Shown here piece by piece: positions 13,734 through 28,196 of a stretch of DNA of 64,000 nucleotides. Numbering within the stretch: the stretch's first letter is position 1; the number at the start of each line of letters is the position of its first letter. The translations under genes were made by a program, and so were the position numbers. This DNA comes from Halocatena salina (lineage in GTDB: Archaea > Halobacteriota > Halobacteria > Halobacteriales > Haloarculaceae): the NCBI RefSeq assembly GCF_023115355.1, contig NZ_CP096020.1, positions 310,001-374,000 of the forward strand. Reading direction: 5' to 3'. The notes under the pieces were generated by a model, which saw only the letters and a list, made by a program, of their open reading frames with translations, had not been told where the DNA came from and made no database searches.

Positions 13734-14828
13734 GTGCAATCGGTAGTCGTGGAACTAGATGAGATTCAGGCGGTGCTCGAATCGTTCTCACACCGCGACT
13801 GGCAGCAAGCAGATGAAGACGCGGGACCGATCCGATTCGCCATGGTCGGGTTGGGGTGGTGGACCCGTGATGAAGCATTACCCGCTGTCGAGGATTCGAC
13901 GCTCTGTGAAACGACAGTCGTCGTCAGCGGCTCAACAGAGAAAACCGAAGCGGTCATAGACGAACACGAATCGGTACACACCGGGCTTACGTACGAGGAG
14001 TTCGGGGCGGGCGAAGCAGCCGACGCGTACGATGCAGTCTACGTCTGTACCCCGAACGCCCGCCACCTCGAATTCGTCGATATCGCCGCCGATCAAGGCA
14101 AGGCGGTCCTCTGTGAGAAACCCATGGAAGCAACCGTCGAGCGCGCAGAGGAGATCGTCGATAGCTGCCGGAATGCAGACGTAACCGCGATGATTGCCTA
14201 TCGCATGCACACTGAACCGGCGATCAGGCGAGCGCGGGAACTGCTCCGAGCGGGCGTGATCGGTGATCCGATCCACGCCCACAGTGATATGTCCCAGGGG
14301 ATCATCGGCTGGGGAGCTGATCAGTGGCGACTCGATCCCGACCGTGCTGGCTATGGAACGAGCGTGATGGATCTGGGCATCTACTCGGTCAACACCACGC
14401 GATTCGTCCTCGGTCGTGATCCGATCGCGGTACAGTCGATGATGCACAGTGACCACGAGTTCTTCTCGGCAGTCCCCGACGAAGTCGCGGCGTTCACCGT
14501 CGCCTTCGAGGACGATATTTATGCTACTTGTACCGCGAGCCAGAACGCCCATCTGAACAGTTATCTTCGGATCGTCGGAAGCGAGGGTGTGATCCGGATC
14601 GAACCGGCATTCCACGGCGAGAGCAGCCTTGACGTGACGAGTGGCGAGACGACGATCGACGTTGACACCGATCAGGTCAACCAGATGGAAGCGGAGTTCG
14701 ACTACTTCGCGGACTGTTTCCTTTCGGATCGGGAGCCGTACGCAACGCCCGAACACGGTCTCCTCGACATGCGGACGCTCGCAGCTATCTACGAGAGTAA
14801 CGAGAGTGCCGAGACGATCGAGATCTAA
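13734..14828 (+). CDS. xdh: NADP-type D-xylose 1-dehydrogenase (Gfo/Idh/MocA family)
   Basis: A 364-residue oxidoreductase. A Rossmann fold begins at FAMVGLGWWTRDEALPAV (about 35-52), and VYVCTPNARHLEF then GKAVLCEKPME carry the family EKP motif. The catalytic-domain helix MDLGIYSVNTTRF follows. The GLGWW-T start and overall length match the haloarchaeal xylose dehydrogenase group (Gfo6), which oxidises xylose to xylono-lactone in the Weimberg-type pathway. The start is GTG at 13734, or GTG at 13749, which is closer to family length. It converges on the importer permease with overlapping stop codons. The xylan context strongly supports xylose as substrate, but glucose-fructose oxidoreductase relatives share the fold. 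Confidence 0.85.
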   Translation: MQSVVVELDEIQAVLESFSHRDWQQADEDAGPIRFAMVGLGWWTRDEALPAVEDSTLCETTVVVSGSTEKTEAVIDEHESVHTGLTYEEFGAGEAADAYDAVYVCTPNARHLEFVDIAADQGKAVLCEKPMEATVERAEEIVDSCRNADVTAMIAYRMHTEPAIRRARELLRAGVIGDPIHAHSDMSQGIIGWGADQWRLDPDRAGYGTSVMDLGIYSVNTTRFVLGRDPIAVQSMMHSDHEFFSAVPDEVAAFTVAFEDDIYATCTASQNAHLNSYLRIVGSEGVIRIEPAFHGESSLDVTSGETTIDVDTDQVNQMEAEFDYFADCFLSDREPYATPEHGLLDMRTLAAIYESNESAETIEI

Positions 14829-16885
14829 CGTGTCGATTCGTCATCGACAGATTTCGCGTGGCGAGCCCTGATCCGCGGGTTGCTGATCCGATCGAGCGAT
14901 TGCGAAAAGAGGATCAGCCCCATTGAAAGAAGAATGATGAACGCTACTGGAGCGACGATGAAGTGGACTTGTTCGAGCGTATACAGCGCCCCAGCCTCTT
15001 CTGCGTTGTTGAGAACTACGCCCCAGTTCTGGGAGCTGATCGGAAGGAATCCGAGGTAGTACAGCGCCACCGACGCGAAGATGATGTTTCGAGCGTTGTT
15101 CGCGAGATTGATCAGGATGTACGGCCAGATGTTCGGGAGAATGTCTTTAAGAATGATCGGCGGTGTTCCGATACCCATCGCACGAGACGATTCGACATAC
15201 TCGTATCCCCGGACTTTGAGGACTTCAGAGCGGATTGAACGGCCGAGTCCGCCCCAGGCAGCGACCGAGAGGACGAGACCGATAACTGCTGGATGTCGCG
15301 GTTCAATGATCGCTGCGATAACGATGATGAGGGGCAGGCCGGGAATAGAGATAACGATGTCACAGATCGTCATCAGCACCCGGTCGATGGTTCCACCCTG
15401 GAATCCCGCGACCGTGCCGACGCTGACGCCCACGAATACTGTTGCGACCGCACCAGCGACGATCATGATCAAAACGGGCGTCGTCCCGTGAACCATCAGC
15501 GATAGGATATCTACCCCCGTGTTCGTCGTTCCAAGTGGGTGTGCAAGAGAGCCGTCAAGCGGAGAGATCCACGTTTCGAACGTCGTCGTAGGGCTGTACA
15601 CGAATCGTGGGCCGATGAAACCGGTGGCGAAGAAAGCAAGAATGATAGCGAGTCCAGTGAATCCCCGCCAATCGCTGAGAACGATCTTCATCGGCGCATA
15701 CACTGACCGGTCGAACTTCCGGTAGAGTGCTTCCTTTCGACCGACGTTGACCGCGGCTTCCTCATCCATGAACTCATAGCGAGTTGTTCCGTTGCCGCCC
15801 AACCTGCTAGTACCCGCCCGCCCGGTGAGTCGCCGTACGTATCGCTTGAGTTGTGCTCGAAGCGGTATGCCGGTCGAGTTTCCGTACTCCGTACTGTCTC
15901 CTTCGGCCTGAGCACGGGGATCGATCCGACTGTAGGTGATGTCCGCGATGATCATTGCGATCACCACCGTGATACAGATGACCATGAACCCGCCCACCAT
16001 CAACGGGTAATCACGATTATTGACGCCTTCGAACATGTACCAGCCCATGCCGTGGTAGCTGAAGATGTCCTCAAGAATGATCGAGCCCCCGATCATGAAC
16101 CCGACTGTCAACAACAACCCGGTGTACAGCGGTAACAGCGCGTTGCGCATGACGTATCGAAGCGCGATCCGGGATGGGGGAAGCCCCCGCAAGCGGGCCA
16201 CTCGGATGTGATCAGCACCGAGGACGCTGATTGAATTACCACGCATGCTGAGCGACGCCGCGGCACCCGTAACGATCAGTGAGATTATCGGTAATGCTGC
16301 GTGGTGTAACGCTCCGAATACGAACTCGGGGCTGAGACCGATTTCGACCCCGCCTGGATAGCGTGCCCCGGTCGGAAACCACTCCAGTTGGTATGCAAAG
16401 ACGAACGATAGGAGGAGTGCTGCGACGTAGTAGGGAGTAGAGGTTTCGAGAACGGCGATGCCGGTCATTACAGTATCGAATTTCGAACCCTCGTAGTACG
16501 CCATGATCGCACCGAGACAGATGCTCGTGACGAACGTGATGACCAGTGCGATGGACATGTAGAAGATAGTCCACGGAATGGCCTCTGCGAGGATCTGATT
16601 GACCGAGGCGTTCTGTGATATCGAATAACCGAGATCACCCTGAAGAAGCGACGACATGTAATCCACGTACTGGACGTGCAACGGCTTGTCTGGGCGGATA
16701 TTCAAATGAAGTTCGACGACTCGGCGTGCAGTCGCTGGGTCTCCCGGATACTGTTCGAGCATCTGTGCCATCATTGCATCCAATGGGTTGCCGGGCATCA
16801 CCCGGACCAGGACGAACGTCAGATGGAACACGACGACGACCGTCAGTACTGCCTGCCCCAATCTCTTTACCAGCCAATTTGTCAT
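14825..16885 (-). CDS. Fused DppB-DppC oligopeptide/oligosaccharide ABC permease
   Basis: A single 686-residue frame contains both permeases of an Opp/Dpp importer. Residues 1-330 are DppB-like (LVKRLGQAVLTVVVVFHLTF, VRVMPGNPLD, and an EAA loop around RLRGLPPSRIALRYVMRNAL). Residues about 395-680 are DppC-like (HPLGTTNTGVDILSLMVHGT, RAMGIGTPPIILKDILPNI). The 60-residue linker (about 335-395) is hydrophilic, as the DppB tail and DppC head usually are. No stop or start separates the halves. It lies downstream of the substrate-binding lipoprotein and sugar-acid dehydratase, with the two ATPases divergent, so the complex should import xylo-oligosaccharides or related sugars. A natural gene fusion is more likely than a read error, because the frame is continuous. 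Confidence 0.88.
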   Translation of the reverse strand: MTNWLVKRLGQAVLTVVVVFHLTFVLVRVMPGNPLDAMMAQMLEQYPGDPATARRVVELHLNIRPDKPLHVQYVDYMSSLLQGDLGYSISQNASVNQILAEAIPWTIFYMSIALVITFVTSICLGAIMAYYEGSKFDTVMTGIAVLETSTPYYVAALLLSFVFAYQLEWFPTGARYPGGVEIGLSPEFVFGALHHAALPIISLIVTGAAASLSMRGNSISVLGADHIRVARLRGLPPSRIALRYVMRNALLPLYTGLLLTVGFMIGGSIILEDIFSYHGMGWYMFEGVNNRDYPLMVGGFMVICITVVIAMIIADITYSRIDPRAQAEGDSTEYGNSTGIPLRAQLKRYVRRLTGRAGTSRLGGNGTTRYEFMDEEAAVNVGRKEALYRKFDRSVYAPMKIVLSDWRGFTGLAIILAFFATGFIGPRFVYSPTTTFETWISPLDGSLAHPLGTTNTGVDILSLMVHGTTPVLIMIVAGAVATVFVGVSVGTVAGFQGGTIDRVLMTICDIVISIPGLPLIIVIAAIIEPRHPAVIGLVLSVAAWGGLGRSIRSEVLKVRGYEYVESSRAMGIGTPPIILKDILPNIWPYILINLANNARNIIFASVALYYLGFLPISSQNWGVVLNNAEEAGALYTLEQVHFIVAPVAFIILLSMGLILFSQSLDRISNPRIRARHAKSVDDESTR

Positions 16886-17045: not shown

Positions 17046-18227
17046 CTATGCGTCGTCAAACATGGTTTCGCCGTCGACCAAATGGTCCGTGAGGACGTCG
17101 TGGTCGAGTTCGACGCCGAGTCCGGGAGCATCGGGAACCGTAATGCGTCCGTCTTGGATGAGGGGATCGGATTCAGTGACCAGATCGTCCCACCACTCGA
17201 TATCACGTGCATGAAATTCAAGGGCAAGGAAGTTGGACGCTGCAGCTCCAACGTGGGCGCTAGCCATCGTGCCGAGCGGTGAGGCCACGTTGTGGAGTGC
17301 CAGCGGAATGGAGTACGCTTTAGCCATGTTGGCAGCCCTCTTCGTTTCAAGCATCCCACCGGTTTTCGGTACATCCGGATGGAAGATATCGATCCCTTGG
17401 TTCTCGATCAGCCGACGGGCACCTTCGACCCGATAGAGATTCTCTCCGGCGGCAATAGTGGTATCCGTGTTGTGCGTAACGTAGGTCTGTACCTCGTGGT
17501 TCTCGGGTGGAACAGCGTCTTCGAGCCACCAGACGTCGTACGGTTCGAGCGCGCTTGCCAGGCGGCGGCCAGTGTCACCGGACCAACTCCAGTGGCAATC
17601 GAACGCAACATCAGCACGGTCGCCGACGCGGTCGATCACCGTTTCTACGATCTCTCGACGGTGCTCGATCGCTCGTGCGTTCAGGTGCTTGTTTCGTCCG
17701 TCCTGTTCGTGTCGATCCGGTCCATCGAGATCGAACTTTAACGCGTCGAATCCATCAGCAACGACTGTTTCTGCAGCATCGGCGTACGCTTCTGGGGAAT
17801 ACGAATCGTCGTCCGTCTGATGGAGGTGTTCGCCCGCATGGCTGTCACAGTACACGCGAACCGTATCACGGTGTTTCCCGCCGATGAGCTGGTAGGCTGG
17901 AATGCCGAGGAGTTTTCCAGCGAGGTCATGGAGCGCGATATCGATCCCGGAGATCGCAGTGACGCCGACCCCGTTCATTCCGCCAAGAAAACACGACCCA
18001 TCGAAAAGGTCCGTACAGCGCGCATCGATATCGACCGGATTCTTCCCGATGATCAACTCCTTTGCGTGTTCGATGTAGGCGTTGGCGTTCGGTCCGAGGA
18101 CCGCCTCACCGACCCCAGTGACGCCGACATCGGTAGTGATTCGGATGAACGTCCAGTGAAACCCCGACTCCACTCGCGCTGTCTGAACGTCTGTTATCGC
18201 TACATCACGTGCATCGGTCTCTCTCAT
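17046..18227 (-). CDS. Enolase-superfamily sugar-acid dehydratase (xylonate/gluconate-type)
   Basis: A 393-residue mandelate racemase/muconate lactonizing enzyme-type protein. Numbered from the ATG at 18227, metal ligands are Asp210 (FDCHWSW), Glu236 (WWLEDAVPP) and Glu262 (AGENLYR). His312 (LALHNVASPLG) is the likely general base, and Lys164-x-Asp166 sits on the second strand. This fits the acid-sugar dehydratases, including the xylonate and arabinoate dehydratases of haloarchaeal pentose oxidation. It lies between the lipoprotein gene and the fused permease and near xdh, which favours xylonate. Galactonate or gluconate dehydratase remains possible. GTG at 18230 is an alternative start, and a CATCAC/GTGATG dyad covers the start codon. 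Confidence 0.8.
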   Translation of the reverse strand: MRETDARDVAITDVQTARVESGFHWTFIRITTDVGVTGVGEAVLGPNANAYIEHAKELIIGKNPVDIDARCTDLFDGSCFLGGMNGVGVTAISGIDIALHDLAGKLLGIPAYQLIGGKHRDTVRVYCDSHAGEHLHQTDDDSYSPEAYADAAETVVADGFDALKFDLDGPDRHEQDGRNKHLNARAIEHRREIVETVIDRVGDRADVAFDCHWSWSGDTGRRLASALEPYDVWWLEDAVPPENHEVQTYVTHNTDTTIAAGENLYRVEGARRLIENQGIDIFHPDVPKTGGMLETKRAANMAKAYSIPLALHNVASPLGTMASAHVGAAASNFLALEFHARDIEWWDDLVTESDPLIQDGRITVPDAPGLGVELDHDVLTDHLVDGETMFDDA

Positions 18228-18240
18228 CACAGTCGTGATG
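18225..18240. promoter_or_regulatory. Dyad symmetry over the dehydratase start
   Basis: CATCAC-AGTC-GTGATG, a perfect 6-bp inverted repeat with a 4-bp spacer covering the start codon. The half-site ATCAC also occurs as ATCAC-G-GTGAT at 13709-13719 just before xdh, although with different spacing. A shared regulator is possible but weakly supported. Confidence 0.3.
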
Positions 18241-18347: not shown

Positions 18348-20159
18348 TTACTGTGGTTCGAGCCCATGCTCGAGGAAGTAATGCGTGATGCGGTTGGACG
18401 TCAACCAGGCATCCGATTCGAGATCGAAGTTCCACTCGCCAGCATTCACCCAGTAGTGTTCGCTCCATGGATGGATCATCGTCCCAGGGAGGAGGTGGTT
18501 GTGGGCCCACGCAAGTCGGGTTGCGTGCTGGACAACTTTGTCATCGTTCTGAGCGGTCGAGAGTGCGTTGAGGGTCTCCTCGAAGTTGACCGTGATCATG
18601 TCGCCATCGGGGTTCCCGATCTCGGGTACTTCGACCTCGTTCCCGAACAGCTCGCGCTCGGAAACAGCGCCCCTGGTCGGGCCGAACAGTTCTTCCTGGA
18701 GATCGGCGTGGGCGTGGTAGTCACGGGCCATTCCGTAGTTGAGGTGGACGCTGATGTCGTACTGGGAGCCGTCCTCGACTTCTGCCTGCCACGTCGGCAT
18801 CTCCTCGATGTAGTAGTCGACACCGATGCCGAACTCATTGAGATTGTTGTAGATCATCTCGGACGGCTGTTGGAACCAGTCACCGACGGGGAAGTTCAGC
18901 TCCCAGTGATCACCATCGGGCGTGTACCAATCCCCATCCTCCTGAGTAAACCCAGCATCTTCGAGTAGTTCCGTCGCACGGTCTCGGTTCTCCGGAATGT
19001 AGTTCGTCATCGCCTCCAACACGCTGTCCTTGACGAAGAACTCGACGTAGCCAGCGTCGATACCACACGAGTACGTGTCTGCTGGGGTGTCGGGAGCGAC
19101 CTCGGCAACGAGCGTCTTGAAGTCGACGACGTGTGAGAGAGCCTGTCGGACGCGGGGGTCGTTGCTAATGTACTCATCCTCCGGACCAAACAGCAACGCA
19201 AACGACTGACCGGAGTATGAGACTGGCGGCGTGTCATACTTTTCTGGGAGGTCCTGTAGGGTCGGATCGTTGTGCCGCCAGTCGACCTCACCCGCGCGTA
19301 ACCCTGCCTCGTCTTTGGCCCGTCCGTATCGGAGGTAGAACTCCCAGTCTTGGGCAATGGGGTGTTCGGGGTTCGGGATCTGATCGGCGTACTCTTCGTT
19401 TGCCTCGATGAAGACGAACGGTCCCGAAAAGAGCGCTTGATCCCACTCCGGTTCGAACGAAACGACATCCTGTTGGATCTGTTCGACCTCGTCGTCCCCA
19501 GCGTCCTCGAATCGCTCGATAAACTGGCTGTAGTGGGTCTCCGAGACGTTCAATAACGTCTCGGCCCATTGGTTGATCCACAGCTCTCGTTCGATACTTT
19601 GATACTCCTCACGAGGCTGGAGTTCGAACGCGTACTCACCATCGGTGGTAATGTCGTTCGGATCGACGTACGTCTCGATCCCCTGATCGAGATACGCCGA
19701 CAGTTTGAGGGCAGTCACGAAATCAGCCGACGTTATCTGACTCCCGTCAGACCAGCCATACTCGTCGCTGATTTCGATGCGTGTGGCGCCCGTCTGCTCG
19801 TCGATCTCCCAATTCTCTGCGATCCGAGGGATGAACTCCCCTTGCTCGGTGCTGTAGATGGCGAGGTATTCAAAGGACGTCTCCTGAACCTCGCCGGGGT
19901 TCCACGACGTGTGGTAGGGGTTGAAGATGTGTTCTCCGTTGTACGGATTGATCTCCCCCCCGGGAACTGCCTCGTTCATCTCCTCTTCGTAGTTCTCGTT
20001 GTAATCCACGTCGACGGTTTCCAGCCCCTGGTTGAGTAGGTCGCTGTCATCGTCGTCACCGCCAAGACAGCCTGCAATCGTCCCGATCCCCGCTATCCCC
20101 GTCAGTTCTAACATTCGTCGCCGCGAAATGGTTACTGATCGTTGGTACTTCTCTACCAT
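18348..20159 (-). CDS. ABC transporter substrate-binding lipoprotein (family 5)
   Basis: A 603-residue extracellular solute-binding protein. The N-terminus has a Tat signal (ISRRRMLELTGIAGIGTIAG) and a lipobox ending at Cys31, followed by an acidic spacer (GGDDDDSD) typical of haloarchaeal lipoproteins. The body carries family-5 features: WEIDEQTGATRIEISDEYGW and SDGSQITSADFV near residues 145-175, ALSHVVDFKTLV (about 345) and VRQAL. Family members bind peptides, nickel or oligosaccharides. Beside a sugar-acid dehydratase and xylanases, a xylo-oligosaccharide ligand is the best guess. It is the first gene of the operon lipoprotein-dehydratase-permease and is divergent from the ATPase pair. 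Confidence 0.88.
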   Translation of the reverse strand: MVEKYQRSVTISRRRMLELTGIAGIGTIAGCLGGDDDDSDLLNQGLETVDVDYNENYEEEMNEAVPGGEINPYNGEHIFNPYHTSWNPGEVQETSFEYLAIYSTEQGEFIPRIAENWEIDEQTGATRIEISDEYGWSDGSQITSADFVTALKLSAYLDQGIETYVDPNDITTDGEYAFELQPREEYQSIERELWINQWAETLLNVSETHYSQFIERFEDAGDDEVEQIQQDVVSFEPEWDQALFSGPFVFIEANEEYADQIPNPEHPIAQDWEFYLRYGRAKDEAGLRAGEVDWRHNDPTLQDLPEKYDTPPVSYSGQSFALLFGPEDEYISNDPRVRQALSHVVDFKTLVAEVAPDTPADTYSCGIDAGYVEFFVKDSVLEAMTNYIPENRDRATELLEDAGFTQEDGDWYTPDGDHWELNFPVGDWFQQPSEMIYNNLNEFGIGVDYYIEEMPTWQAEVEDGSQYDISVHLNYGMARDYHAHADLQEELFGPTRGAVSERELFGNEVEVPEIGNPDGDMITVNFEETLNALSTAQNDDKVVQHATRLAWAHNHLLPGTMIHPWSEHYWVNAGEWNFDLESDAWLTSNRITHYFLEHGLEPQ

Positions 20160-20445: not shown

Positions 20446-21507
20446 ATGGGAAACGAATCGATTAACGTCTCACGAGCTGATTCTCGATCGGAGGGAGATC
20501 CGATTATTACGGTTCGGGAGACGAACGTCAGATACGAGATGGACCAGGGTGCATCTCACGTTCTCAAAGACATCGACCTCGACATTCACCGGGGGGAGAT
20601 CCTCGGAATCGTTGGTGAAAGCGGAAGCGGCAAATCGATGTTCGCGGATTCACTTTTAGACGCCGTCGTCGAACCCGGACTCCTGAGCGGGGAGATCACG
20701 TATTATCCCGAAGACGGGATGCCGATCGACGTTCTCGGGCTTCAGCCGTGGGAGCTCCGCGAGTTTCGCTGGGAAACGGTTTCGATGGTGTTCCAGGGGG
20801 CAATGAGCGCGTTCAACCCGACGATGAGCATCAAAGAACATTTCGAGGAGACGCTCGACGCCCACGGCTGGGACAGAGACGACGGTCTCCAGCGCGCAGA
20901 ACAACTGTTCGCCGACCTCCACCTCGATCCATACCGGATGCTCGGGTCGTTTCCTCACGAACTGAGCGGTGGACAGAAACAACGGGCACTCATCGCCCTC
21001 AGTTTGATTTTAGAGCCAGAGGTGCTCGTCATGGACGAGCCGACCGCCGCGCTCGATTTGCTCATGCAACGTTCGATCCTCAACCTGCTCTATGACATCA
21101 GGGACAAGTACAACCTCACAATGGTGTTCATCAGCCACGATCTACCGATCGTTTCCGGGTTTGCCGACCGGCTGGCGGTCATGTACGCGTTCGAATTCGT
21201 TGAGGTCGGGCAGGCGAACGATATCCTCGGAAACGCTTCCCACCCCTATACACGCGCATTGCTCAAATCGACACCCAACCTCCAGACACCGCTCAAGGAA
21301 ATGCGACAGATCGACGGCGAGAGCCCCGATCCGATCAACCATCCATCAGGCTGTTCGTATCATCCCCGGTGTCCCTTAGGTGACGAACGGTGTACGGCAG
21401 ACGACCCCCCGTTTTACGATGTCGATGATGGACACGAGGTGCGGTGTCACTACTGGGAGCACGCCGATGAAACGATCCCGCTCTCGTTCGGTGGTGACCG
21501 TCGATGA
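20446..21507 (+). CDS. Oligopeptide-type ABC transporter ATPase (DppD-like)
   Basis: A 353-residue nucleotide-binding subunit. It has Walker A GESGSGKS (about 60-67), signature LSGGQKQR (about 175), Walker B VLVMDEPTAALD and the switch histidine in FISHDL. The C-terminal oligopeptide/dipeptide extension is present with its cysteines (CSYHPRCPLGDERC, then RCHYW), which in relatives bind an Fe-S cluster. It pairs with the next gene, which overlaps by 4 bp, to power the fused permease. GGTGATC at 20435-20441 matches the 16S 3' end. Specificity follows the binding protein, probably oligosaccharides. Confidence 0.92.
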   Translation: MGNESINVSRADSRSEGDPIITVRETNVRYEMDQGASHVLKDIDLDIHRGEILGIVGESGSGKSMFADSLLDAVVEPGLLSGEITYYPEDGMPIDVLGLQPWELREFRWETVSMVFQGAMSAFNPTMSIKEHFEETLDAHGWDRDDGLQRAEQLFADLHLDPYRMLGSFPHELSGGQKQRALIALSLILEPEVLVMDEPTAALDLLMQRSILNLLYDIRDKYNLTMVFISHDLPIVSGFADRLAVMYAFEFVEVGQANDILGNASHPYTRALLKSTPNLQTPLKEMRQIDGESPDPINHPSGCSYHPRCPLGDERCTADDPPFYDVDDGHEVRCHYWEHADETIPLSFGGDRR

Positions 21508-22655
21508 GTACTGACGAACCGTTGATCTCGATAAAGAACCTAAAGGTCCACTTCGAGGATTCATCGCTCGTGAACGCGATGATACCCGCTTGGATCAGTG
21601 ACCGACTGGGTATCGAGGAGGAACCGACCGTTCGGGCGGTCGACGATATCTCCCTCGATATCGGCGAAAACGATGTCATTGCTCTAGTCGGTGAGAGTGG
21701 CTGTGGTAAAACGACCCTCGGAAAGGCAGCCGTCGGATTGCAACGTCCCACGGGCGGCTCAATCGAGTACCGTGGTCACGATATTTGGGACGTGCGAGCT
21801 GGCGAGTCGGACGCGGATATCACGTTCGAAGAGATCCGTCGATCTCTCCAGATCATTCATCAAGACCCTGGCGCGGCACTGAACCCGTACCGCTCAGTGC
21901 TCGATAATCTCGCGGTTCCGTTGAAACGTTGGAATCCCCATCTCAACCACGAAGAGCGGAGAAATCGGATCCTCAACATGCTCGAACGAACGGGGATAAG
22001 CCCCCCAGAGGACTACGCTGAGCGGTACGTTCACCAACTCTCGGGTGGTGAGCAACAACGGGTGGCACTCATCCGCGCGCTGCTGGTCGAACCCGACGTG
22101 ATCCTCGCAGACGAGGCGGTCAGCGCCCTCGATGTTTCGCTTCGGATCGGCGTGATGGACCTATTCCTCGAAATGCAGGAGATCTTCGACACGTCGTTCG
22201 TATTTATCAGTCACGATCTCGCAAACGCAAGGTACCTAGCGGGAAAGTCGGGCGGAAAGATAGCCGTGATGTATCTCGGAGAGATCGTCGAGGTCGGGAC
22301 CGCCGAGGAGATCACCACGAACCCACAGCATCCGTACACCAAGGTACTACAGTGGGCGACACCGATCCTTGATCCCGAGCAGGCCGAGGAAGCCATGCGC
22401 GAGTCACCGCCGGTCAGAAAGATCGACATTCCGAACGCGACGGAGCCGCCATCGGGATGTCGGTTCCATACGCGATGTCTCGAAGCACGTGAAGCCTGTC
22501 GCCGGGAACGTCCGGACCTCTATGAGGACGAAGAAACGTTCCACCGAACGAGGTGTTTCCGCCAACTCGACGACCACGACTACTGGGACAGTCCGGAGTA
22601 CACTGACGAAGAACCTAGTTCTTCGGCAGACGACAAACAGCAGACACACGAGTGA
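21504..22655 (+). CDS. Oligopeptide-type ABC transporter ATPase (DppF-like)
   Basis: A 383-residue second ATPase of the importer. It has Walker A GESGCGKTT (about 68-76), signature LSGGEQQR, Walker B VILADEAVSALD and the switch FISHDLANARYL. The C-terminal oligo_HPY region has PSGCRFHTRCLEAREACRRE with three cysteines and RCF further on. An insertion at about residues 15-35 (NAMIPAWISDRLGIEEEP) before the first strand is common in DppF. Translation is coupled to the upstream ATPase through ATGA at 21504. The acidic 30-residue tail is disordered. It is the last gene of the rightward importer operon. Confidence 0.92.
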   Translation: MSTDEPLISIKNLKVHFEDSSLVNAMIPAWISDRLGIEEEPTVRAVDDISLDIGENDVIALVGESGCGKTTLGKAAVGLQRPTGGSIEYRGHDIWDVRAGESDADITFEEIRRSLQIIHQDPGAALNPYRSVLDNLAVPLKRWNPHLNHEERRNRILNMLERTGISPPEDYAERYVHQLSGGEQQRVALIRALLVEPDVILADEAVSALDVSLRIGVMDLFLEMQEIFDTSFVFISHDLANARYLAGKSGGKIAVMYLGEIVEVGTAEEITTNPQHPYTKVLQWATPILDPEQAEEAMRESPPVRKIDIPNATEPPSGCRFHTRCLEAREACRRERPDLYEDEETFHRTRCFRQLDDHDYWDSPEYTDEEPSSSADDKQQTHE

Positions 22656-23276: not shown

Positions 23277-23374
23277 ACGACGCTCTCTGAGTGATCCGAT
23301 GTTCAGTCGAAATCATCCCAACACGACCGAATCAGCGACACTTACATACGTATTCCCGATCATTTGACGACGGA

Positions 23375-24349
23375 ATGTCGAACGATTCGAGCCTCAAAGA
23401 GGTAGCTACCGACCGTGGATTTCGGATCGGTGCCACACTGAACGCACAATCACTTCGAAACGATCCGAGCTACTGGAAGACAGTGAGAAACGAGTTCAAC
23501 GCGATCACTCCCGAAAACGCCCTGAAGATGGGGCCGCTTCGACCCGCACGAAACACCTACGATTTCACTGATGCCGACGCGATCGTCGATTTCGGGCGGG
23601 CAAACGATATGTACGTTCGTGGGCACACACTCGTTTGGCACAACCAACTGCCCAACTGGTTCCAAGCATGGGAGTACACCGACGAACAACTCGAAACCTT
23701 TCTTCGGGATCACATCCATACCGTCGCGGGCCGATACCGGGCTACAGTCGACGCTTGGGATGTTGTAAACGAGGCAGTCGCCGACGATGGGACGCTCCGA
23801 GAGACAGTCTGGGCGGACGCGATGGGTGAGAAGTATCTCGATCGTGCGTTCCGCTGGGCCAGCGAAGTCACCGACGCGACGCTCTATTACAACGACTACG
23901 GTGCCGACGCTGTAAACGAAAAATCTGACAGCATCTACACCCTGCTTTCAAATCTCCTCGAACGCGATGTCCCGATCGACGGCATCGGGCTTCAGTGTCA
24001 CTTCCTGGGCGACCGACCGGCTCCCGAATCCATCGCGGAGAACATCCGCCGATTTCAGGAGCTTGGGCTCGATGTACAGATCACCGAGATGGACGTCGCA
24101 TTCACCGCTGGTGATGCTCCCGACGATCGATGCCAAGAACAGGCCGCGTACTATCGAGCGATCGCCGAAGCTTGTTTAGAAACCGGTTGTGATACACTCG
24201 TCCAATGGGGAGTGAACGACGCGAACTCCTGGCTACGGCAGTTCAAGGACTTCCCCGAACGATACACGGACGATCCACTGTTGTTCGACGATAACTGTGA
24301 TCCCAAGCCCGCGTACCACGCCCTCACAGACACATTGATCGACGGCTGA
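23375..24349 (+). CDS. xynA: GH10 endo-1,4-beta-xylanase, cytoplasmic
   Basis: A 324-residue single-domain GH10 enzyme. NAITPENALKMGPL (43-56) and VRGHTLVWHNQLPNW (81-95) line the substrate cleft. WDVVNEAV holds the acid/base Glu133 and QITEMDV the nucleophile Glu238; WGVND is near the end. I chose the ATG at 23375 (MSNDSSLKEV), where family similarity begins. There is no Sec or Tat signal, so unlike the GH11 pair it acts inside the cell, probably on short xylo-oligosaccharides brought in by the adjacent importer. Short intracellular GH10 enzymes are known from xylan-utilising bacteria. Confidence 0.93.
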   Translation: MSNDSSLKEVATDRGFRIGATLNAQSLRNDPSYWKTVRNEFNAITPENALKMGPLRPARNTYDFTDADAIVDFGRANDMYVRGHTLVWHNQLPNWFQAWEYTDEQLETFLRDHIHTVAGRYRATVDAWDVVNEAVADDGTLRETVWADAMGEKYLDRAFRWASEVTDATLYYNDYGADAVNEKSDSIYTLLSNLLERDVPIDGIGLQCHFLGDRPAPESIAENIRRFQELGLDVQITEMDVAFTAGDAPDDRCQEQAAYYRAIAEACLETGCDTLVQWGVNDANSWLRQFKDFPERYTDDPLLFDDNCDPKPAYHALTDTLIDG

Positions 24350-24397: not shown

Positions 24398-25855
24398 CTA
24401 CTCGTACTCTGGCGATCCTGCGAGCACCTCTGACGCTTCCAGTTCCCACTCCGAAAGGTACGACGTCTCGGCCGCGACCAGTTCGGCGAACATGTCCCGG
24501 GAATCCTGTGGCGAGAGCGTACGAACTTGAGGATCGATGAGTACTCCTTTGAAGGCTTCATCGACATCACCAGTCCGCGAGGCGTCGATCACGGTCTCGA
24601 TAGTGTCGACGTGGGTAGCGATTATCGACCGAATTTGACGCGGAAAACCGCCGGTCGAGAGCGGCCGGATCTCGTTAGCACGGACGAGCGCATTGGTTTC
24701 TACGATAGCACCCTGTTCGATATCGGAAACCTGTCCAGTGTTGATCATATTAACGTTCGTGGTGAAAGGATCTCCTCCTGCAAGCGCCTCTAGCACGTCC
24801 GCAAACACCTCGTGGGTGGGTTCGAGTTCGAACGCTTTCTCGCCGTCAAGCCATGCCTTGACATCGGTCGTCTGCTTGGAGTCTGTGGGAGTCCAGTGTT
24901 TGGCCCGGTAGTCACTCCCGGTCCGTTTGATACCCCAGCGGTTGAGTGTGTCTTCGCCTCCGTGAAGAAACCAGTTGGCGTACTCAACGAGATGGCGATC
25001 GCCCGCCGCGGGAAACAGACCGAAGCGCCGGAACAGTTCCCACGTAACCTGTTGGTTGTCGACGAACACACTTTCGTCTTCTAGATCCGTCGGCGTGAAC
25101 ACCCGATTTGCTTGCTCGCTGTCGAGGTATCCCTCTAGTAGTGGCCAGAGATCGATACCCTTGCAGTATGCCTCATCGACCCATGTGAAATGATTGATCC
25201 CCTTGACGTTGAGAGTGATGTCATCGTGGGTCGCGTCCACACCGAGGTGTTCTTCTGCGAGGTGCGCGAGGTAGAATCTGGTGCCCATCACCTCGTGGCA
25301 AAGGCCAACAGCATTGATCTCGGGATACTCGTCGTACAGCGCACGGGTGACGAAATGCACCGGATTGGTGAAGTTGAACACCCACGCGTCCGGACATTGC
25401 TCGCGGATCGTCGCTGCGAACGTTCGATAGAGAGGAATCGTCCGCATCGCCCGCATGATCCCGCCGGGACCGATCGTCGCCGAGACAGCGCCGTGGATGC
25501 CGTACGCCTGTGGAATGTCGAGGTCGTGGACGAACGTTTCAGCAGGATCGAACTGCGTCGAGGTGATAACGACATCTGCACCTGCTAACGCCGTCTCGAG
25601 ATCCTCGACAGCTTCGTAGCTCCACGTTCCATTCGTCTCGCACTCTATCTCGACCCAATTCCCGAAACGAGCATTCAACTGTGCACTCTCATAGTTGACA
25701 TCGTAGAGGCGAACCTCGCCATCGAGGGTCGAGAGCGCCATGTCCTGTACGAACTTCGGCACCCACTGGCGACTACCGCCGCCGATATACGTAATGATCA
25801 TGTCGTCACCGTTGATCGCGGTACTTGACCGTCCCTGTTGATCTGGGAGGCTCAT
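24398..25855 (-). CDS. GH4 NAD/Mn-dependent glycosidase (CHEV motif)
   Basis: A 485-residue GH4 enzyme. The NAD-binding start is ITYIGGGSRQW (21-31), and FNFTNPVHF precedes GLCHEV (184-189), the Mn-binding signature. KGINHFTWV is the next conserved block. GH4 enzymes split glycosides by an NAD-assisted oxidation-elimination mechanism. The C-H-E-V form separates this protein from the 6-phospho types (CDMP, CN-P) and fits enzymes acting on unphosphorylated alpha-glycosides or alpha-uronides. Beside xylanases, alpha-glucuronidase or alpha-galacturonidase are attractive roles, but sequence alone does not settle it. The start ATG is 25855; another at 25801 lies just before the fold. It converges on the GH10 gene. 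Confidence 0.85.
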   Translation of the reverse strand: MSLPDQQGRSSTAINGDDMIITYIGGGSRQWVPKFVQDMALSTLDGEVRLYDVNYESAQLNARFGNWVEIECETNGTWSYEAVEDLETALAGADVVITSTQFDPAETFVHDLDIPQAYGIHGAVSATIGPGGIMRAMRTIPLYRTFAATIREQCPDAWVFNFTNPVHFVTRALYDEYPEINAVGLCHEVMGTRFYLAHLAEEHLGVDATHDDITLNVKGINHFTWVDEAYCKGIDLWPLLEGYLDSEQANRVFTPTDLEDESVFVDNQQVTWELFRRFGLFPAAGDRHLVEYANWFLHGGEDTLNRWGIKRTGSDYRAKHWTPTDSKQTTDVKAWLDGEKAFELEPTHEVFADVLEALAGGDPFTTNVNMINTGQVSDIEQGAIVETNALVRANEIRPLSTGGFPRQIRSIIATHVDTIETVIDASRTGDVDEAFKGVLIDPQVRTLSPQDSRDMFAELVAAETSYLSEWELEASEVLAGSPEYE

Positions 25856-26044
25856 AGCTGGTGCATCAAGCGTACCATGATAAGTGTACGGGTAGGTATC
25901 GAAGACCACCAACAACGAATGATCTATTATTTAAATTCTATATAATTATGAATCAATGATAAGGACATACAATTTCACAGTTCAAATATCCATAATATTT
26001 ATTAGGATGTATCTCTATTGTCGAACTGCAGGAGATGGATATGC

Positions 26045-26767
26045 ATGCAAGACGACAATAAGTCACAACCATCCGACGATGGTATCGTGGAGAAAACACG
26101 AGCGGCAGACGGCCGAACAGATCGGCGTAGCTACATGAAAGCAGTCGCCACCACCGTGGCGACTGGTTTCGGGGTTGGTGCTATGGCCAGTCCGGCCGCT
26201 GCGGCCATCACTGAAAATCAGACCGGCAACGACGGCGGATACTTCTACTCGTTCTGGACCGACGCTCAAGGAACGGTGTCCATGACGTTGGGGAACGGAG
26301 GCAACTACAGCGTCGAGTGGAACGATACAGGAAACTTCGTCTGCGGCAAGGGCTGGAGCACCGGCAGCCGTAGGAACGTAAGCTACTCAGGTTCATTCAA
26401 TCCGTCCGGCAACGCCTACCTGTGCCTCTATGGATGGACGACGGATCCACTGGTCGAGTACTACGTCCTCGACGACTACGGTACCTACCGGCCTGAACAC
26501 GACTACAAGGGCACCGTCAACAGCGACGGTGGGACGTACGACATCTACGAATCAATGCGATACGATGCCCCCTCCATCATAGGCGAGGCGACCTTCCCGC
26601 AGTATTGGAGCGTCCGTCAGTCGAGACGGACGGGAGGTACTATCACTGCCGGCAACCACTTCGACGCGTGGGCCAGTAACGGCATGAATATAGGCAGCCA
26701 CGACTACCAGATCTTAGCCACCGAGGGCTACCAGAGCAGCGGAAGTTCCAACATCACAGTTTGGTAA
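26045..26767 (+). CDS. GH11 endo-1,4-beta-xylanase, secreted (copy 1)
   Basis: A 240-residue protein. The Tat signal is [18 protein letters not shown] (25-42), and cleavage is likely after ASPAAAA. The GH11 jelly roll follows: [25 protein letters not shown] with nucleophile Glu138, [17 protein letters not shown] (the thumb), and [13 protein letters not shown] with acid/base Glu227. It lacks a binding module. It is the upstream member of a tandem pair with the gene at 26919, which repeats it at a constant 955-bp offset. A TATA-like AATATTTATTA at 25993-26003 and purine-rich GGAGATGG at 26031-26038 precede the ATG. It cuts xylan outside the cell. Confidence 0.93.
26123..26762 (+). repeat. Tandem duplication, unit 1 (GH11 region)
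   Basis: Aligns with 27078-27717 at a constant 955-bp offset, with no gap. Stretches of exact identity include 26237-26311 (75 bp) and 26566-26631 (66 bp). Differences cluster elsewhere, which suggests recent duplication with patchy gene conversion. Confidence 0.85.
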
Positions 26768-26918
26768 GTCAACAAACAGCACAGTCCGCCGGAGCCACCC
26801 ATCCCCCCAGAGCCGGGGCTCTGTGATGGATCCGGTGACGACGGCGGATGAGGGAGTCCCGCCGACGAATACCTTACAACACCTCCTCAAAAGGGGTAAA
26901 AAACACGATTCAACAACC

Positions 26919-28196
26919 ATGGCAAACAACGAATGCGACATCGAAGATACACACGATGTCGAAGATACAACGGAGAAATGCAACGACCACACCGCGATGG
27001 CAGAGAACTCAACAGATTGCGGGGCAGACGACAATCAACCGATCGAATCCGATGAAAGAGGCATGGACTCGATCGGTCGGAGAGATTACATAAAGGCAGT
27101 CTCGGCCGCTGTGGCGACTGGCCTCGGCGCCGGAGCCGTCGCAAGTCCGGCCGCTGCGGCCATCACCGAAAACCAGACCGGCAACGACGGTGGATACTTC
27201 TACTCGTTCTGGACCGACGCTCAAGGAACGGTGTCCATGACGTTGGGGAACGGAGGCAACTACAGCACCGAGTGGAGCGACACGGGGAACTTCGTCGCTG
27301 GTAAAGGCTGGGAAACCGGTGGACGCAGGAATGTGACCTACTCGGGCTCGTTCAACCCGTCCGGCAACGCCTACCTGTGCCTCTACGGATGGACGACGGA
27401 TCCACTGGTCGAGTACTACATCGTCGACAACTGGGGCAGCTACCGACCCGATGGGGATTTCAAGGGTACTGTCAACAGCGACGGTGGGACGTACGACATC
27501 TATGAGACGTTGCGGGAAAATGCCCCCTCCATCATAGGCGAGGCGACCTTCCCGCAGTATTGGAGCGTCCGTCAGTCGAGACGGACCGGGGGTACTATCA
27601 CCACCGGCAATCACTTCGATGCGTGGGCCAGTAACGGCATGGACATGGGCAGCCACGACTACCAGATCTTAGCCACCGAGGGCTACCAGAGCAGCGGAAG
27701 TTCCAATGTCACAGTCGGTGACTCCGGCGGGGACGGAGGCGGTGACGACGACAACGGCTCAAGTCCCATCGCGAACGGCACTTACCGTATTGCCAACGTC
27801 AACAGTGGGAAAGTACTCGACGTGGCAAACTCGTCTACCGAGGACGGTGCAAACGTCCAGCAGTACTCTTACGGTGGCGGCTCGAATCAGCAGTGGAACG
27901 TCGAAGACACCGGAAACGGCCAATATCGGATCGCCAACGTCAACAGTGGGAAGGTGCTCGACGTAGCGAACTCATCCACCGAGGACGGCACAAACATCCA
28001 GCAGTACTCCGACGGCGGTGGCGACAATCAGCGCTTCGAACTCCACGACCAGGGCGGCGGCGAATACCACGTCCAGCCGGTTCACAGTGATAAGGCCGTC
28101 GACGTGGCGAATTCGTCGACTTCGAACGGGACGAACATTCAGCAGTGGTCCTGGAACGGTGACGACAACCAACTCTGGACGTTCGAGTCGGTCTGA
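26919..28196 (+). CDS. GH11 endo-1,4-beta-xylanase with ricin-type (CBM13) module (copy 2)
   Basis: A 425-residue secreted xylanase. An acidic N-terminal stretch (1-52) precedes a Tat signal, [20 protein letters not shown] (53-72). The GH11 domain (82-264) has catalytic Glu165 (PLVEYYI) and Glu254 (LATEGYQ). A Gly/Asp linker (266-285) leads to a beta-trefoil of three repeats (287-425), each with [14 protein letters not shown]-like and QQW or QLW strands, the QxW signature of ricin-type CBM13. I chose the ATG at 26919; ATGs at 26823 and 26998 are in frame too. The catalytic domain is nearly identical to copy 1, so copy 2 either gained or kept the sugar-binding module. Confidence 0.92.
27078..27717 (+). 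repeat. Tandem duplication, unit 2 (GH11 region)
   Basis: Second copy of the GH11 signal and catalytic region; see 26123-26762. Similarity stops at the end of the catalytic domain, where copy 1 reaches its stop and copy 2 continues into the linker and ricin-type module. Confidence 0.85.

Follow-up and report, generated by a model that had tools for sequence, protein, structure and literature searches.

The 64,000-nucleotide stretch of the Halocatena salina genome analyzed here (the window; contig NZ_CP096020.1, positions 310,001–374,000) probably encodes an Opp/Dpp-family importer of (glucurono)xylo-oligosaccharides whose permease became a single chain through loss of a stop codon, and which would work with two ATPases and an SBP_bac_5 protein. 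The permease gene runs for 686 codons without interruption (Table 1). Residues 1–95 of its product match BPD_transp_1_N (PF19300, 30.9 bits against a Pfam cut-off of 23.8), and BPD_transp_1 matches in two stretches (PF00528, 175 bits; cut-off 26.4). NCBIfam models of the DppB/OppB type fall on residues 1–329 and those of the DppC/OppC type on about 400–677; no NCBIfam equivalog cut-off (DppB, OppB, NikB, and others) is reached, the best score being 217.6 bits for Opp2B against 350. The uninterrupted frame and the domain matches confirm the first-pass annotation, which had read the gene as DppB and DppC joined in one continuous frame, with EAA loops kept in both halves and the matching ATPases encoded separately and divergently; loops and ATPases are found as described. 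The fixed subunit order and 1:1 stoichiometry that it predicted would follow as consequences of a single chain. Permease domains, two oligo_HPY ATPases, an SBP_bac_5 protein, and one EAA loop per half are present, as expected for membership in the Opp/Dpp family; two separate permease chains, a usual though not strictly defining trait, are absent, their place being taken by one conserved open reading frame. Promoter and terminator scans with bacterial models gave results no better than those from shuffled sequence.

Table 1. Features of the permease gene and of the surrounding xylan island, in window coordinates
Feature	Position	Strand	Basis
Gfo6 D-xylose 1-dehydrogenase, convergent	13734..14828	+	NCBIfam equivalog, 545 bits (cut-off 350)
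Fused DppB-DppC type permease, 686 aa	14825..16885	-	Open frame; Pfam and NCBIfam; conserved fused
DppC-type half, residues 405–686	14828..15673	-	
EAA loop of DppC half, residues 561–588	15122..15205	-	Sequence
Linker, residues 325–404, hydrophilic, predicted cytoplasmic	15674..15913	-	No TM segment; coding codon-position pattern
Predicted basic amphipathic helix, linker residues 342–354	15824..15862	-	
Codon GGA (Gly335) at the DppB stop site of split relatives	15881..15883	-	Junction alignments
DppB-type half, residues 1–324, with BPD_transp_1_N	15914..16885	-	
EAA loop of DppB half, residues 223–252, GADHIRVARLRGLPPSRIALRYVMRNALLP	16130..16219	-	Sequence
Enolase-superfamily (MR_MLE) sugar-acid dehydratase, between binding protein and permease	17046..18230	-	
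Substrate-binding protein, SBP_bac_5	18348..20159	-	Pfam, 80.4 bits (cut-off 32.4)
ATPase, DppD type, oligo_HPY C-terminus above cut-off	20446..21507	+	Pfam, NCBIfam
ATPase, DppF type, oligo_HPY C-terminus above cut-off	21504..22655	+	Pfam, NCBIfam
GH10 endoxylanase	23291..24349	+	
GH4 glycosidase; nearest solved relative LplD alpha-galacturonidase	24398..25915	-	
GH11 xylanase	26018..26767	+	
GH11 xylanase with ricin-type lectin domain	26823..28196	+	

Among solved chains, the first half is closest to DppB/OppB and the second to DppC/OppC. An AlphaFold2 model of the permease (pLDDT 80.7, pTM 0.80) fits solved OppB/DppB over residues 1–329 (Z 25–29) and solved OppC/DppC over residues 383–678 (Z 24–27); this model was obtained by adding split B and C relatives to the 12 fused orthologues, which alone gave a pLDDT of 40.8, and three rows from plasmid records were omitted from the deep alignment. 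Each half can be aligned, in sequence as well as in fold, with the DppBC/OppBC permeases of Escherichia coli (8z1v, 8z21) and Mycobacterium tuberculosis (8j5q, 8wd9), with which the window system shares its EAA loops, two ATPases, and SBP_bac_5 partner; those permeases, however, consist of two separate chains, whereas an 80-residue linker joins the halves of the window permease into one. Permease fusion as such is known from FbpB-type iron importers; in the ferric permease of Thermus thermophilus (9j4r), too, a single polypeptide contains two transmembrane halves. The window model matches 9j4r over residues 17–668 (Z 21.2, 14% identity), but its halves fit OppB/OppC better; the FbpB-type fusion, in another importer family, is probably an analogue of the window fusion and not a relative.

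The same full-length fused frame, without a stop, is carried by 12 of the 392 genomes sampled across the order, the window genome counted. The 11 other orthologues are 72–88% identical to the window permease and come from independently sequenced genomes of several families; carriers include Halocatena pleomorpha, of the same genus, as well as Natronobiforma cellulositropha, Natronorubrum texcoconense, Natrialba swarupiae, and Haladaptatus halobius. On plasmids of Halosolutus gelatinilyticus and Haladaptatus halobius the fused gene is annotated as a single CDS. Because the same stop-free frame recurs in 11 other genomes, the window fusion is not due to chance or error, and the first-pass suggestion that a fused gene in several species would mark a true lineage feature is borne out. 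Its description of the fusion as uncommon also holds, as fused pairs occur in at least 24 of the 392 genomes (12 in the window clade and 12 in others), a lower bound because at most two candidates per genome were scored. With two candidates per genome, a search of the phylum returned no fused gene beyond the order, and the bacterial plasmid matches in a spread sample were split or partial. One Clostridia hit (L093) was considered as a fusion and rejected, as its halves lie in different frames. Fused permeases of the same architecture, each a single CDS with a linker of about 80 residues and a basic stretch, are found in Halomontanus rarus, Haloarcula marina, and Halocatena marina; these differ from the window permease in lying on other branches of the tree, at 37–48% identity, mostly without xylan genes nearby.

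The junction retains a record of how the two genes were probably joined. In split relatives, DppB ends 9–11 residues past a conserved DPR, mostly as E-x-Y/F-stop, and the stop is mostly TGA. The first 10 residues of the window linker correspond to this former DppB tail; the window clade keeps it with E/Q-V-Y-Gly (E-Y-Gly in the window), and a glycine codon occupies the stop site throughout. Among other fused lineages, that site holds glycine in L068, L071, L074, and L096 and serine in L043, L046, L079, and L080, and the tail motif is not recognizable in L075, L097, and L099. A single base change converts TGA to GGA or TCA, and in many split pairs the halves are already in frame, separated by one stop. 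Given the glycine codon at the former stop, the window fusion most likely arose by loss of the dppB stop codon: in an ordinary dppB-dppC pair, the stop would have mutated to a sense codon, consistent with TGA to GGA, and translation would then have continued into the DppC N-terminus.

The sequence beyond the junction behaves as a protein segment. The first-pass annotation had described a hydrophilic linker of 60 residues; the hydrophilic character stands, and the length is about 80 residues. Across the 12 orthologues, differences per site at codon positions 1, 2, and 3 of the linker are 0.26, 0.18, and 0.54, and linker length varies by whole codons only. This third-position bias, together with the whole-codon lengths, indicates that the linker evolves as coding sequence. 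Invariant in all 12 are Y334, G335, G339, P341, R343, Q345, R348, and R352. AlphaFold2 gives a weakly predicted helix at residues 342–354 flanked by disorder; the N-terminal helix of DppC comes next, at 383–404. Fused linkers in general span 79–91 residues and start with a basic, often amphipathic stretch, whereas split DppC N-termini are acidic and of variable length. Fused linkers, one representative per lineage, average 84 residues (sd 3.4); in split pairs, the DppB tail and the DppC N-terminus together average 75 (sd 15; Levene p 0.0014). The charge past the junction is 0 to +6 in fused pairs, whereas split DppC begins with a charge of −1 to −6 (p 2.5e-5). In both comparisons, the starts of split DppC are guesses based on start codons and Shine-Dalgarno matches, and the lineages are not fully independent.

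How often fused and split states have changed was read from a maximum-likelihood tree of 58 pairs, which excludes the linker and is unrooted. The best tree has at least six changes (six to eight over bootstraps), and well-supported branches by themselves require three. Support is 100/100 for the window clade, in which all pairs are fused, and 98/98 for its sister relation to a clade in which all are split; a single clade of all fused pairs is rejected (p 0.0006). Fusion is uncommon in the Opp/Dpp family yet recurrent in haloarchaea. Because the tree is unrooted, gains and losses are not formally separable; the split state is taken as ancestral because it is the commoner one, and from this majority among the relatives we infer fusion rather than fission. 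The alternative, that fusion is ancestral in this haloarchaeal family and that split pairs arose by repeated fission, is unlikely but has some points in its favor. Several fused lineages share linker length and the basic stretch past the junction, and some fused linkers outside the window clade are recovered, in a set of 14, by a profile built from the linkers of that clade (best E 1e-6). Each fission, however, would have to create a stop, a ribosome-binding site, and a start anew at the same place, split pairs bear no trace of a basic helix past the stop, and most pairs are split; the rejection of a single fused clade also argues against it, although that result is insufficient alone to exclude fission. 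Linker-to-linker similarity between fused lineages is weak and uneven. We tentatively consider, as a reading with somewhat less than an even chance, that haloarchaeal permeases fused by stop-codon loss several times independently and converged each time on a linker length near 80 residues, the linker opening with a basic, often amphipathic stretch. Such convergence, if true, could perhaps keep the linker against the acidic membrane surface or away from the ATPases.

The substrate is suggested by the genomic surroundings. On the minus strand, the gene order is binding protein, enolase-superfamily dehydratase, and permease, with both ATPases divergent; the binding protein and the dehydratase, which were absent from the first-pass annotation, belong to the gene cluster. 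The Gfo6 gene overlaps the end of the permease gene by 4 bases. A DppF orthologue (78–86%) lies on the permease contig in 11 of 11 other fused genomes, sometimes with other genes intervening between the two. Neighbors of the orthologues in several genera encode GH3, GH10, GH11, GH43, and GH51 enzymes, glucuronate isomerase, and mannonate dehydratase, and xylan-type glycoside hydrolases occur near 11 of 13 window-clade loci compared with 5 of 41 others, the comparison loci having been chosen by similarity and not at random. From the xylanases, the GH4 glycosidase, the xylose dehydrogenase, and the orthologue neighbors, we propose uptake of (glucurono)xylo-oligosaccharides; xylo- or glucuronoxylo-oligosaccharides are the most likely substrates. 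Of the earlier reading as a peptide/oligosaccharide importer, the oligosaccharide part is retained, the surroundings pointing to xylan oligosaccharides, and the peptide part is not. It is quite improbable that the importer carries peptides or some other substrate and sits in a xylan island incidentally: the sequence family is Opp/Dpp and the transporter equivalog cut-offs of NCBIfam are unmet, as that explanation would have it, but linkage to GH10, GH11, GH3, GH43, GH51, xylose dehydrogenase, and glucuronate genes is repeated in several genera.

Opp/Dpp-type oligosaccharide importers of Thermotoga and Pyrococcus provide a precedent for sugar uptake by Opp/Dpp-class proteins, as proposed for the window system; we know of no fused permease among them. 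Among solved proteins, the binding protein is closest to tmCBP (2o7i/4jsd) of Thermotoga maritima, which binds cellobiose and laminari-oligosaccharides. Two points here count against the proposed reading: the match covers a short N-terminal stretch only, and tmCBP does not bind xylopentaose (PMC3850815).

In the OppB/OppC family, both halves have cytoplasmic ends, so the linker can remain in the cytoplasm. In our working model, one chain would form the entire transmembrane part of the importer, folding into the usual B–C pair with the linker staying cytoplasmic; the two ATPases, encoded divergently, would power the pair, the SBP_bac_5 binding protein would supply it, and the imported oligosaccharides would be those released by the neighboring xylanases. 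We infer that the permease exists in the cell as a single polypeptide with a cytoplasmic linker, assembling as one chain with two different ATPases. There is a small chance that the fusion is partial, with the long frame translated but a separate DppC also made from a start inside the linker. In many split relatives, the dppC Shine-Dalgarno sequence is encoded within the DppB tail (GGAGGTGA in "AGGE"), and 7 of 12 fused orthologues have an in-frame ATG at codon 332, most behind a partial GGxGA. The window gene, however, has ACG at 332, no in-frame linker start codon is conserved over the 12 orthologues, and no Shine-Dalgarno-like match precedes the window in-frame starts at 362, 373, 395, and 399. 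The lack of a conserved linker start and of ATG332 in the window disfavors separate synthesis of DppC from this gene, which appears unlikely from its sequence. That the fusion is an assembly or sequencing artefact can be dismissed, as no supporting evidence was found and conservation of the frame across independently sequenced genomes already refutes it.

Among the papers searched, judged by their titles, abstracts, and term counts, no account of a fused Opp/Dpp permease came up. Opp/Dpp importers require two different permeases, correctly paired, and with many paralogous pairs possible in each haloarchaeal genome, a natural one-chain permease fixes the pairing. It also shows what linker length and composition are tolerated, which is useful for structural work on the family. 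Close relatives that are fused, split in frame, or overlapping form a readable record of operon neighbors becoming one protein. The system is, moreover, a candidate for xylo-oligosaccharide import in haloarchaea; little is known of how these organisms take up oligosaccharides, as has been noted for cello-oligosaccharides (PMC10267330).

Several further observations concern the same loci and genomes. Two other fused lineages also lie near mannonate dehydratase genes (L096, 6205–7203; L097, 8491–9432), so uronic acid–containing substrates may be common among fused systems. The catalytic domains of the tandem GH11 genes (26018–26767 and 26823–28196) are very similar. The ends of the ATPases (21335–21507 and 22440–22655) are cysteine-rich and resemble the C-termini of E. 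coli DppD and DppF, which bind 4Fe-4S (PMC12136057). Among the genomes compared, G040 and G041 give matches on contig C1 that agree exactly in coordinates and in score; G040, the larger of the two and 9% contaminated, may be a mixed assembly containing G041. A paralogous split dppB-dppC pair in the window genome (L094, G000:C2:466903-468990) shares one frame with a single TGA and is one base change from fusion. The same genome carries a second frame with two BPD_transp_1 stretches (535 aa, G000:C2:511873-513177), probably an FbpB-type fused permease.
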